Assembly (NCBI GenBank): GCA_003577165.1
Contig: QEUM01000012.1
Coordinates: 1-64,000, forward strand
DNA length: 64,000 nt
Origin: Armatimonadota bacterium
Lineage (GTDB): Bacteria > Armatimonadota > Fimbriimonadia > Fimbriimonadales > ATM1
Reading direction: 5' to 3'
In this document: in pieces, positions 13,279 to 20,877 of the stretch
How the letters are laid out: every line of letters begins with the position of its first letter
Position numbering within the stretch: position 1 is the first letter of the stretch
Position numbers and translations under genes: made by a program
Notes under the pieces: generated by a model
What the model was told of the DNA's origin: nothing
What the model saw: only the letters and a program-made list of their open reading frames with translations
The model's database searches: none

Positions 13279-14958
13279 TTATTCCGTACCTACGACCTTT
13301 CGCTCGCGCCAAGTGCGGACGCGAAGGGTGAAGTAGTCCTTGTCACCTGGCATTGCTGGCGGCATGTTGTTGACCAGCGCGGGCACTTGGTAGATGTTTG
13401 GGACGTTCGTGCCCATGTCGTAGAAGTTCGCGACGAACGTGCCGAGGATCTGATTCTGCTTTGCGCTGACGATCGTTCCTTGGGCGTAGAACGCCCCCGC
13501 CATCGCGAGCTGCGCGTCGCCTCCGCCCGTAGCAAGATACATGTTTCTCTGCGCGATCAGTCCGAGGCGTGTGGTCGTTGGGAAGGTAAAGCCAGTCTTC
13601 GGGAGCAGGCTTGCGTGGATGTCGATGTCGTTCGTTGCGAACATCGTGCCACTTCCAATGTAGCGGATCATCTCTTTCGATGAACCGAGCGTCAGGTTGC
13701 CCACCACACGAACGACGCCGCTAATATTGAGAGTCGCAGGCGTAACGATGGTGCCACCAACCTTTACCTGTGGCGTGAAGCTGATGCGATTGCCATAGGC
13801 ATCCGGCCCGTAGGAGAAGGCCGGAGTGTTTGCCGTGATCGTGTTGATGGGAATCGTAAGCGCGCGGTTATCGAGAAACAGCCGCTGATTTGTCCAGTGC
13901 GTTCCGCCAGAATCCACATACTCTGGCGCGCCAATGCCGCTAATGAGCGGAAACGCCAGATTGAGGTGCCCAAGGTCGTACTGGTGGTTCGTTCCGTTGT
14001 CGCTGAACACGCTAGATGCGCCTTGGTTGCCCGTCCAGCCGTCGTTCACGAAGGTGCCGTCCACAGTACTCTTGTAGGCGCCTCCGCCGAGGATATCACT
14101 GGTACCAATCGTGGCCGTTCCGGAAAGGCCGATCATTCCATGCTTCACTCTTACCTCAGTCCCGAGTTGCTCGATTCCAGCGGGCGCAGGGGGAGGTGGA
14201 ATGAGGCTGCGGAGTTCGGCCGGCATTCCATAGTAGTTGTTGCCAACGTACGCTTTTCCGCCAAAGCTGGAGTTCAAGTCCGTGGTCGTCAGAGGTGGGT
14301 CGTACATCCCGTTGAAGTTCGTGTCGTTATAGGGTTCAGCCGAGTTCCAGACCCCGTCGCCATTTGTGTCGGAGAACGCCTCGCCAGGGTCCCAAACTCC
14401 ATTCTTGTTCGAGTCGGTGAATAGTTCGGCTGCATCCCACTTGCCGTTTCCGTTCAGGTCAGAGTAGGGCTCGCCATCGCCGAGGCAGTGCATCGAACCG
14501 CGAATGTCCACGTTGCCGTTAATGGTGCGGCCGCTTGCGCCCGTGCCAGCGAATACTGCGTTGTTCCAAATGGAAACGTTCTTCGTGCTAACGTAGGCTC
14601 GCACGCTGGTCGTCTTGCCGCGATACGACACTTCGCTTGTGATCCACGCATAGGAGGCATCTGAGGCTGGGGAAACGGTGGCCGATGCCACGCAATCCGG
14701 CGCGATATCTTGGAGTTCGTCCGTGAGTTCATACTCATGAGACTGGAACGCTCCGTCGTTCAACATCGCGGACTGATAGGCGAGTGAAATCGCATAGTCG
14801 AGCGCAGCTTGCGCTCCTTGGAAGCTTACGAGTGCCCGGTTCTCCTTGTCGGCTCGACCGAGGCTGTTGCTGGCGAGGCCCGCAAGTCCGAGCAGAAGCA
14901 GCGTGACGATGAACATCGCCGCAATCACTAAGACCGATGCGAATGCTCTTTTTCTCAT
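13279..14958 (-). CDS. PilX-like minor pilin with EF-hand-type Ca2+ repeats
   Basis: 559 aa. The N-terminus (MRKRAFASVLVIAAMFIVTL then LLLGLAGLASNS) is a membrane helix of the PilX/T4SS minor-pilin type without the classical prepilin Glu. Residues about 167-220 hold four consecutive DxNxNGxxD units (DLNGNGKWD, DSNKNGVWD, DTNGDGVWN, DTNFNGMYD), which are EF-hand/dockerin-like calcium loops. The C-terminal half is a beta-rich repeat domain (RVVGNLTLGSSKEMIRYIGS). It is third in a pilV-pilW-pilX-like operon with an ATGA overlap to the gene before it. The likely role is a tip or accessory pilin whose adhesion or stability depends on Ca2+; that is inferred. Confidence 0.7.
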   Translation of the reverse strand: MRKRAFASVLVIAAMFIVTLLLLGLAGLASNSLGRADKENRALVSFQGAQAALDYAISLAYQSAMLNDGAFQSHEYELTDELQDIAPDCVASATVSPASDASYAWITSEVSYRGKTTSVRAYVSTKNVSIWNNAVFAGTGASGRTINGNVDIRGSMHCLGDGEPYSDLNGNGKWDAAELFTDSNKNGVWDPGEAFSDTNGDGVWNSAEPYNDTNFNGMYDPPLTTTDLNSSFGGKAYVGNNYYGMPAELRSLIPPPPAPAGIEQLGTEVRVKHGMIGLSGTATIGTSDILGGGAYKSTVDGTFVNDGWTGNQGASSVFSDNGTNHQYDLGHLNLAFPLISGIGAPEYVDSGGTHWTNQRLFLDNRALTIPINTITANTPAFSYGPDAYGNRISFTPQVKVGGTIVTPATLNISGVVRVVGNLTLGSSKEMIRYIGSGTMFATNDIDIHASLLPKTGFTFPTTTRLGLIAQRNMYLATGGGDAQLAMAGAFYAQGTIVSAKQNQILGTFVANFYDMGTNVPNIYQVPALVNNMPPAMPGDKDYFTLRVRTWRERKVVGTE

Positions 14959-15515
14959 GATCCGTTCCTCAAGATTGCTGTCGTTTTCATTCGGACATAC
15001 CGATCGGTGGGTCCGACTGTCCGCCGCGTGATGAGGTTGATGGTCACGGCCCGCCGCGAGCCGATGGTAGTAAGTTGAAACGGCGCATACTCTTGGCCGT
15101 ACTGGGTCGAACCTGGATCCGGGTCGACAGCGGAAATCTCATCTACGAGCACTTCCCCCGTTTCGTCGTCGACGAGTTGTCCATCGACTACGCTGAACGA
15201 GCGCTCCACGTCGGCAGTGAGCGGTTGCACGTACTCGCGCTCTCCAGTCGTCGGGTCGACCTGGTCGGACAGGCGAGGAAGAGTATAGTAGAGCGTCTTC
15301 CCGTCGCCGGTGATCTCAATCGCCATTGCGCTCCGGAGCTTCTCGCAGATCTTGCGCATTCCCATCGAATTCGATTGGGAGAGGTCAATGTCGGTGTCCG
15401 TGTAGTTGTAGAAGCGGAAACTAGTGACCCAGAGGGACATGAGCCCCCCGACCAGCAGAAAGAAGATGCTCATGCCCACGAGCATCTCCAGCAGGGTGAA
15501 TCCTCGCTTCCTCAT
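14955..15515 (-). CDS. Prepilin-like protein, PilW/PulJ type
   Basis: 186 aa from ATG 15513-15515, overlapping the stop of the gene before it (TAATG). It has a canonical type IV prepilin start: MRKRG then FTLLEMLVGMSIFFLLVGGL, with the conserved Glu at +5 after the expected cleavage. The C-terminal domain has DDETGEVLVDEISAVDPDPG and a beta-rich end. PilW/PulJ proteins are minor pseudopilins that prime assembly of type IV pili or type II secretion pseudopili. It shares an operon with the PilV-like and PilX-like genes. Confidence 0.8.
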   Translation of the reverse strand: MRKRGFTLLEMLVGMSIFFLLVGGLMSLWVTSFRFYNYTDTDIDLSQSNSMGMRKICEKLRSAMAIEITGDGKTLYYTLPRLSDQVDPTTGEREYVQPLTADVERSFSVVDGQLVDDETGEVLVDEISAVDPDPGSTQYGQEYAPFQLTTIGSRRAVTINLITRRTVGPTDRYVRMKTTAILRNGS

Positions 15516-16009
15516 TAGCGATACGCTCCGATGATCGTCCCGGTCAGGACTTGGCGGCGGACTCCGCTCTCGGAAAGCCACGAGACGACCAGAGTGATCT
15601 TCTTCGATCCGTCGGGCAGGTCCTCAACCCAGAATTTGCCCTGGCCGGACCTCAAAGCCTGTGCCGGACTGTAGAGCGATGCCTCGTCCAAGGGCACATT
15701 GGTAAACTCGTAAGGACTCCCGGTCTGACCCTCGTCGATCAGGTTGAGTTGGGCAAGGGCCTGCGGGTTCACGTCTGAAGGGCGGAGCATCTGAATATGT
15801 TCCAGCATCCGGTTGGCGATCTGGACGGCGCGCGACTCGTGGCGCGCCATGGATTCGCTCCGCTTGAGGACGGGAAATAAAGATAGGAGCCCCGCGGCAG
15901 CGAGCATCAGCAAGAACATGCCGATGACCACATCCATTAGGAGTGTGCCGCGCCGCCGGCGGGGAATCCTACCATGAGAGGCGCACATCTTAGACTCTCG
16001 GATATTCAC
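15515..16009 (-). CDS. Prepilin-like protein, PilV type
   Basis: 164 aa from GTG 16007-16009 with AAGGA about 8 bases upstream. The N-terminus has the basic leader GRIPRRRRG followed by TLLMDVVIGMFLLMLAAAGL. This is a class III-like prepilin signal in which +5 is Asp in place of the usual Glu, so prepilin peptidase may process it without efficient N-methylation. The rest is a small alpha/beta head (SKKITLVVSWLSESGVRRQV). It is first in the minor-pilin operon; the three genes overlap by 1 and 4 bases, which points to coupled translation. Confidence 0.75.
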   Translation of the reverse strand: MNIRESKMCASHGRIPRRRRGTLLMDVVIGMFLLMLAAAGLLSLFPVLKRSESMARHESRAVQIANRMLEHIQMLRPSDVNPQALAQLNLIDEGQTGSPYEFTNVPLDEASLYSPAQALRSGQGKFWVEDLPDGSKKITLVVSWLSESGVRRQVLTGTIIGAYR

Positions 16010-18143: not shown

Positions 18144-18230
18144 GGATTCCACGAGAGCCACAGTAATTCTTCGGGGAAGTGAAGAGAGTCGCTCGTGCCG
18201 GGGAAACTGCTGTATACTGCTCATGTGCAG

Positions 18231-18246
18231 GAGCCCAGTTGGGCTC
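18231..18246 (+). promoter_or_regulatory. Leader hairpin upstream of PEP-CTERM gene
   Basis: GAGCCC-AGTT-GGGCTC is a perfect 6-bp hairpin located 36 bases before the start at 18282, downstream of a TATACT hexamer at 18213-18218. It may stabilise the transcript or shape translation; there is no U-run that would make it a terminator. Confidence 0.35.
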
Positions 18247-18281
18247 GGGCCTTGAGAGTGTTTGGAAGGAGAGTAAATCAC

Positions 18282-18878
18282 ATGAAACTCAGAGGATTAC
18301 TGCTCGCTGGGGTGCTCGTTGGAGTGCCGCTGTCGGGCAATGCGTACTTGCTGCTTCAGTCGGCCTCGGGCTTTACCTCAGGTCGAACGATCGGAACGGC
18401 AGACCTGTGGCGGGTCTACATCCCGTTCGATGTCGCCTCGCCGGGCTGGAGTATCACGACAATCGGCGTAGATGGCTGGGAGATCACGGACCCGGGGAAC
18501 ACCGGATTCACGGGAACCCTGCTGCCAGACGACGGTTCGGGCACGACTGCGAACGATGCCGCGCCAATCGCTTCCGCGACCCATGACTTCAACGGGGGAG
18601 CGGGCCAGTCGAACTGGACCGACGCGGCTTACAACGTGGTTGTCGGCCCGGGACGGTATTGGCTAAGGCTAACTCCGCCGAGCGGCAGCCATTGGTCAGC
18701 CAACTACTTCGCGACATCCGGATTGGTGGGATACTCGATCAGGGGTTCCACCGGTGAGCGGTTCGGAGCGGGGTCGCCAACGACCATTCGAGTTGACGGC
18801 ACCGTTGTGCCGGAGCCAGCGACGTTGCTCGCTGTTGGCGCAGGTCTCGCTGCGCTCGCCGCCCGCCGCAGAAAGTAG
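18282..18878 (+). CDS. PEP-CTERM sorted exported protein
   Basis: 198 aa from ATG 18282 behind GGAAGGAGAG. A signal peptide (MKLRGLLLAGVLVGVPLSG) starts the protein. The C-terminus is a complete PEP-CTERM signal: VVPEPATLLAVGAGLAALAA followed by RRRK. Such proteins are exported by Sec, sorted by an exosortase and often glycosylated. The central domain is a Gly/Thr/Asp-rich beta sandwich with no catalytic motif. It is the intact example in this window of the anchor that appears out of frame at 1307-1402. An intrinsic terminator follows directly. Confidence 0.85.
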   Translation: MKLRGLLLAGVLVGVPLSGNAYLLLQSASGFTSGRTIGTADLWRVYIPFDVASPGWSITTIGVDGWEITDPGNTGFTGTLLPDDGSGTTANDAAPIASATHDFNGGAGQSNWTDAAYNVVVGPGRYWLRLTPPSGSHWSANYFATSGLVGYSIRGSTGERFGAGSPTTIRVDGTVVPEPATLLAVGAGLAALAARRRK

Positions 18879-20052: not shown

Positions 20053-20877
20053 ATGAAACTGCTCCTGGCTGGCGCGATCGCGCTCGGCATCCCGGCCCTC
20101 GCGGCCGCAGACGAAATCCAGTGGGCCAAGGACTACGCCTCAGCCGTGGAGGCAGCGAAGAAGTCCAACCGGCTCATCATGGTCGACTTTTACACGGACT
20201 GGTGAGGGTGGTGCAAACGACTTGACCAGGACACATACCCCGATGCGAGGGTGGTCAAGTTGGCGGCGCAGTTGGTGCCGCTGAAGGTAAACGCAGAGAA
20301 GGAAGGCGTCGACCTCGCCAAGACGTACAAAGTACAGGGCTATCCAACGATCCTGTTCCTGAATGCGGAAGGAAAAGTCCGAGGCGAGATCGGGGGCTAC
20401 CTCCCCCCCGAAGAGTTCTCAATCGAGATGCAGAAGTTCATCGAGTTGAACGCGATGTATCCGAAGCTGCTCGAGGAATCGAAATCGGCGAACGCTTCCG
20501 GTGAAACGTTCGCGAAACTCGCGTGGACATACGGAAGTTGGAAAGAGACGAAGGAGGCGGAAGCGAGCCTTGCAAAAGCCGAGTCGAAGAAATACAAAGG
20601 CGAATATCTTGCAAAGGCGTGCAACGCCATCGGCGACATCTACCAGATGTCGGAAGAAATCGACAAGGCGATCCCCTTGTTTAAAAAGGCCGACTCGTCC
20701 GCAGTCAAGGCCGAAGATCGCTCCTATGCGAAAATCTCGCTGCTATTCTGTTACCTCAGCAAACAGGACGTCACGAATGCGAAGAGAATGTGCAACGAGA
20801 TCATCAAGATGAAGGACGCCGTCAAGAGTCATGTTGAAACGGCGAAGGAAATTCTCAAGGAACTGGGCGGCGGATAG
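20053..20877 (+). CDS. Thioredoxin-like protein, probable selenoprotein (UGA at the first Cys of CxxC)
   Basis: ATG 20053 follows AAGGAGG and encodes a leader (MKLLLAGAIALGIPALAAAD). The frame is open to 20877 except for one in-frame TGA at 20203-20205, codon 51. It sits exactly where the thioredoxin active site should be: VDFYTDW-[UGA]-GWCKRLDQ. Related proteins read CGWCK, so selenocysteine (a UxxC redox site) is the simplest reading. The thioredoxin fold continues after the stop (VQGYPTILFLNAEGKVRGEI, with the cis-Pro in GYPT). A helical TPR-like tail follows (residues about 150-274). A SECIS-like hairpin lies downstream of the TGA. The protein is exported, so a periplasmic disulphide or peroxide redox role is likely. 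Selenium genes (selA, selB, selC, selD) are not in this window. A sequencing error from TGC/TGT is the alternative. Confidence 0.75.
20206..20259 (+). promoter_or_regulatory. Candidate bacterial SECIS element
   Basis: Two foldings are visible right after the UGA. In the first, GGGTGGTG (20206-20213) pairs with CAC-A-TACCC (20232-20240). Above it an upper stem CTT/AGG closes a GACC loop whose first base is G, about 19 nt from the UGA. In the second, CTTGACCA (20221-20228) pairs perfectly with TGGTCAAG (20252-20259), with a CCC/GGG top stem and GATGCGA loop about 36 nt from the UGA. From memory, bacterial SECIS apical loops lie roughly 16-37 nt after the UGA with a G among the first two loop bases, so both fit. 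Confidence 0.55.

Follow-up and report, generated by a model that had tools for sequence, protein, structure and literature searches.

Introduction

Thiol:disulfide interchange proteins with selenocysteine (Sec) in a UxxC motif were predicted in 2006 (Zhang 2006, PMC1794560). A Trx-like 2 selenoprotein was recorded in the GOS marine survey (PMC2398784), and a 2026 review tabulates the UxxC thiol:disulfide interchange selenoprotein under the Pfam family PF13098 (PMC13188914); the published reference is WP_011366075.1. For the RNA element, the published bSECIS model places an apical loop of 3–9 nt on an upper stem of 4 bp or more, 16–37 nt from the UGA, with a G within the first two positions of the loop and an MFE of −7.5 or lower; according to the review, a subset of bacterial SECIS elements lies outside this model (PMC13188914). 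In the open-licence literature, which leaves most subscription papers outside, we found no paper with a title or abstract on selenocysteine or selenoproteins in Armatimonadetes, Armatimonadota or Fimbriimonas.

We analysed a 64-kb stretch of Armatimonadota DNA (the window), in which a preliminary description, made from the letters alone, had reported a probable new selenoprotein. The reading of its UGA as Sec is supported by the sel genes of the genome, the recurrence of TGA at the same codon, the Cys found in homologues and a covarying stem-loop. The word new holds in part only, because the UxxC Thioredoxin_2 family had already been predicted (PMC13188914, PMC1794560). By family and motif, the window protein can be likened to the PF13098 UxxC selenoproteins: it has the same Pfam family, a Sec-first UxxC and the thiol-disulfide oxidoreductase type. 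It differs from them by an additional C-terminal TPR-like domain, by its Armatimonadota host and by a SECIS that is longer and located further downstream. The protein type is already known elsewhere; what is fresh is its occurrence in this phylum and the long form of its SECIS, the latter being the most unusual aspect of the finding.

Results

A thioredoxin-like gene with one internal TGA

The predicted selenoprotein gene occupies positions 20053–20877 on the plus strand. The frame of 274 residues has a GGAGGA ribosome-binding site 5′ of its ATG and is closed by TAG at 20875–20877. Its sole internal stop, the TGA at 20203–20205, corresponds to residue 51 and falls on the first position of the thioredoxin CxxC motif (DFYTDW-U-GWCKRL). 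The window contains 142 frames interrupted by TGA, and homology was looked at for this one alone.

The best Pfam match of the translation is Thioredoxin_2 (PF13098; 56.8 bits, cut-off 27), and Thioredoxin_7 (PF13899; 52.9 bits) is also above its cut-off; both domains span the TGA. The protein combines a PF13098 match above cut-off with Sec as the first residue of its UxxC (UGWC). An AF2 model built from 21 sequences, the window protein and related loci, reached a pLDDT of 93.6 and shows a thioredoxin fold at residues ~24–143 and, after it, helices paired in the manner of TPR-like repeats. A TPR_8 match in the C-terminal part is just below the cut-off, so that the label TPR-like rests on the helical model. 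The cis-proline motif of the thioredoxin fold, GYPT, is encoded at 20338–20349 (plus strand; residues 96–99), and P98 is invariant in 21 homologues, which align over their full length. The single open frame, the thioredoxin-like identity and the similarity continuing on both sides of the TGA, all claimed in the preliminary description, are borne out by these data. The N-terminus MKLLLAGAIALGIPALAAAD (20053–20112, plus strand) reads as a probable signal peptide, and its residues 1–20 have low pLDDT in the model; the protein is probably exported.

In bacterial selenoproteins, Sec insertion competes with termination at the UGA. Such competition, being general, would also fit a regulated stop, in which residues 1–50 are the main product, synthesis of the full-length Sec protein is limited to conditions of ample selenium, and Cys is sometimes inserted instead. 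This possibility is compatible with Sec at residue 51, and we consider it rather unlikely.

A bipartite stem-loop directly 3′ of the UGA

Homologues were collected from 101 related genomes and then from 291 genomes of the phylum, the weaker matches being listed in part. With the T of the TGA numbered 1, all stem diagonals were scanned against synonymous-codon shuffles. The predicted bacterial SECIS of the window gene lies at 20218–20262 (plus strand), directly 3′ of the UGA as is characteristic of a selenoprotein gene. Its outer helix pairs 20218–20227 with 20253–20262 and encloses an inner hairpin at about 20237–20252. The structure starts 12 nt after the UGA, its apical loop begins 35 nt after the UGA, and the whole folds with −22.6 kcal/mol. 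Two hairpins had been proposed here; fold, diagonal and covariation support a single bipartite stem-loop instead. Taken alone, the window stem gives a weak signal (MFE z of −1.45 against dinucleotide shuffles and −1.84 against synonymous shuffles), and a comparison with Rfam, at the gathering score and also at E≤10, gave no matching family. The stem becomes convincing only when genes are compared with one another, not through the MFE of a single gene.

The two arms encode the conserved residues KxLD and VVxL; some pairing is therefore expected, and runs in synonymous shuffles already average about 4. The stem could thus be a by-product of protein sequence conservation and no SECIS at all. However, the diagonal i+j=76 stands out in the TGA group of the window gene, with a mean run of 6.80 against 4.07 expected (z=6.2), whereas the Cys homologues are unremarkable there, their top diagonals including neither i+j=76 nor i+j=55. 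Moreover, the i+j=76 rule was set prior to the search of the phylum, and the four TGA orthologues that emerged from this later search follow it with runs of 11, 10, 9 and 9 pairs, while none of the 15 Cys orthologues retrieved together with them has a run above 6 (p=0.0014; the Mann-Whitney and Fisher tests used in this work treat related genomes as independent). These comparisons make a by-product quite unlikely.

Covariation points to the same SECIS structure. Among 14 TGA sequences, 74% of the cells are paired, a value reached in none of 500 shuffles, and sliding the stem partner lowers it to 38% or less; six of the 11 stem pairs have changed on both sides. The closest TGA orthologue, L027, is devoid of the i+j=76 helix, its own helix being shifted by one codon.

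Measured against the published geometry, the window gene is within the limits, with a loop of 8 nt at a spacing of 35 nt, on a hairpin of 5 bp at −4.8 within the −22.6 element. No qualifying bSECIS hairpin was found in 12 of the 14 genes of its orthologue group, in agreement with the remark on elements outside the model (PMC13188914). The strict bSECIS filter discriminates poorly, because it passes 44 of 100 Cys controls as well as 16 of 28 TGA genes.

Recurrence of TGA and exchange with Cys among homologues

Among the matches listed, TGA occupies exactly the codon aligned with residue 51 in at least 28 loci from 21 Armatimonadota genomes; besides the window locus, these comprise 27 loci in its own and 20 other genomes. 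Nearly all the remaining homologues listed, including those of Planctomycetota, Omnitrophota and Bacteroidota, carry TGC or TGT, as expected if the UGA at 20203–20205 is read as Sec in the first position of UxxC; the preliminary description had proposed looking for such a Cys. One homologue (L041) has GAT. The named records of the search were Armatimonadota (Fimbriimonadaceae, with Centralia_MAG_520 in the same family), and plasmid records gave only distant DsbD/thioredoxin matches.

Of the 101 relatives, 54 carry selA. Within this set, the TGA form is restricted, among the matches listed, to genomes with selA: 17 of 17 genomes with this form possess the gene, compared with 37 of the 84 others (Fisher p=6×10−6, a value to be taken only as a guide because the genomes are related and the weaker matches incompletely listed). 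In a tree built from full-length protein sequences, those with Sec and those with Cys are interspersed, with about six changes, which is consistent with repeated exchange of Cys and Sec. The window gene is paired in this tree with L027, likewise a Sec gene (support 96/84). No common neighbour of the window gene was seen at L027 or L028.

A Cys codon is one base away from TGA, and the Cys codons of most homologues would fit a pseudogene or a sequencing error, the TGA being a nonsense mutation or a miscall of TGC/TGT. The recurrence at the same codon in many genomes speaks against it, as do the 223 codons that remain open 3′ of the TGA and the link of TGA both to selA and to an RNA stem that is conserved. 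With the same TGA present in 27 further loci, an error of sequencing is very improbable, and the explanation as a whole retains hardly any probability.

The genome encodes the Sec machinery

The host genome is that of a Sec user, and the genes selA, selB, selC and selD, on whose presence the preliminary description had made its reading depend, were all found. SelA (491 bits), SelB (376 bits) and SelD (355 bits) score above the NCBI cut-offs. A tRNA-Sec with the anticodon TCA (UCA) was detected on contig 17 by ARAGORN and also scores highest with the tRNA-Sec covariance model (76 bits). The frames of SelA and SelB have no internal TGA. SelD (L025:1495–2553, contig 18, plus strand) has Sec in the motif CAGUASK, encoded by an in-frame TGA, and is apparently ended by an ordinary TGA; within this one gene, UGA therefore seems to serve both as a Sec codon and as a stop.

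Ordinary TGA stops were looked for and found in the window, as had been noted before: TGA ends 24 of the 46 long open frames and is the commonest ordinary stop, hence UGA has not been reassigned. An in-frame UGA within a conserved gene might suggest a sense codon (Trp or Cys) read through a reassigned code or a suppressor tRNA, but the frequent TGA stops, the dual use in SelD with none inside SelA or SelB, and the restriction of the TGA form to selA-bearing genomes, among the matches listed in the 101 relatives, leave this next to no probability.

Two possible SECIS forms for paralogous Sec thioredoxins

The genome of the window has a second thioredoxin with an in-frame TGA (L004:1444–2427, contig 14, minus strand), in which a LolA/DUF2092-like domain is joined to a thioredoxin with UGFC. 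Its hairpin, whose CGUGA loop lies at a distance of 21 nt from the UGA, conforms to the canonical geometry of bacterial SECIS elements. The second and more distant TGA group, to which this gene belongs, has its diagonal at i+j=55 (z=5.1 against synonymous shuffles) and fits the published model closely, the loop being 20–27 nt from the UGA and often CGUGA (PMC13188914). A distinct group of TGA thioredoxins, of the EVF type (L144, L145, L147, L148, L150 and L151), is spread over the order, with several copies in some genomes; their hairpin, at i+j=55, is shorter and looks canonical.

Armatimonadota may thus have two SECIS architectures for paralogous Sec thioredoxins. One would be the canonical short hairpin, with a loop 20–27 nt from the UGA and often of the CGUGA type. 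The other, represented by the group of the window gene, would be a long class with a stem of 8–11 bp starting 12–16 nt after the UGA, a bulge on the 5′ side and an apical loop about 35 nt or more away. This long class would be mostly missed by the published models, so that many selenoproteins of the phylum would be unannotated. We regard this proposal as evenly balanced between right and wrong.

A run of pseudopilin-like genes at 13279–16009 of the window (minus strand), with prepilin-type N-termini such as GFTLLEMLVG, suggests a cluster for type II secretion or for a type IV pilus. At 18195–18878, the window encodes an exported protein with a C-terminal PEP-CTERM-like sorting signal VPEPATLLAVGAGLAALAARRRK, and a similar PEP-CTERM-like protein is encoded beside selD (L025:2622–3488).

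Discussion

The reading frame, the Sec machinery, the TGA/Cys exchange and the conserved RNA structure are established here by computation. The gene at 20053–20877 almost certainly encodes a bacterial selenoprotein in which Sec51 is inserted by SelB and the stem-loop, an exported thioredoxin with a UGWC active site and a TPR-like domain, probably engaged in envelope disulfide chemistry and re-reduced by DsbD.

For Sec insertion, export, substrate and reductant of the window protein, we infer the following scheme. SelB carrying Sec-tRNA(Sec) would bind the stem-loop 12–60 nt 3′ of the UGA at 20203, and decoding of the UGA would place Sec at residue 51, giving the UGWC active site. Once exported, the protein with its Sec-Cys pair would carry out thiol-disulfide exchange in the cell envelope, probably reducing or isomerising disulfides, with the selenolate as the attacking nucleophile. 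Re-reduction would probably come from DsbD as the likely electron source; the genome encodes one DsbD-type transporter with a thioredoxin domain of its own.

The thioredoxin domain has DsbD-gamma (1uc7, TMt 0.70) and DsbH (2ju5, TMt 0.67) among its best matches in structure. The DsbD C-terminal domain and DsbH are Cys-based as known, whereas the window protein has Sec, no membrane domain and an extra TPR-like domain. The top Foldseek match by E-value is CnoX/YbbN (3qou), in which a thioredoxin is followed by TPR repeats, but the whole chains superpose poorly (TM 0.31, rmsd 22). Unlike the window protein with its probable signal peptide and UxxC, YbbN is a cytoplasmic protein. The best NCBIfam match, TsoB (NF045694), a rhodanese/DsbD fusion-like selenoprotein, concerns the C-terminal thioredoxin part of TsoB; the identity was rejected, the score being 71 bits against a curated cut-off of 805 and the window protein having neither the rhodanese nor the membrane part.

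These results provide strong comparative evidence for the use of Sec in Armatimonadota, with TGA-coded thioredoxins in 21 genomes and selA in more than half of the relatives (54/101). Standard annotation would probably split such TGA genes into fragments or label them as pseudogenes. The group of the window gene forms a diverged, covarying set of SECIS elements outside the usual length model, which allows the sequence limits of SelB recognition to be probed.
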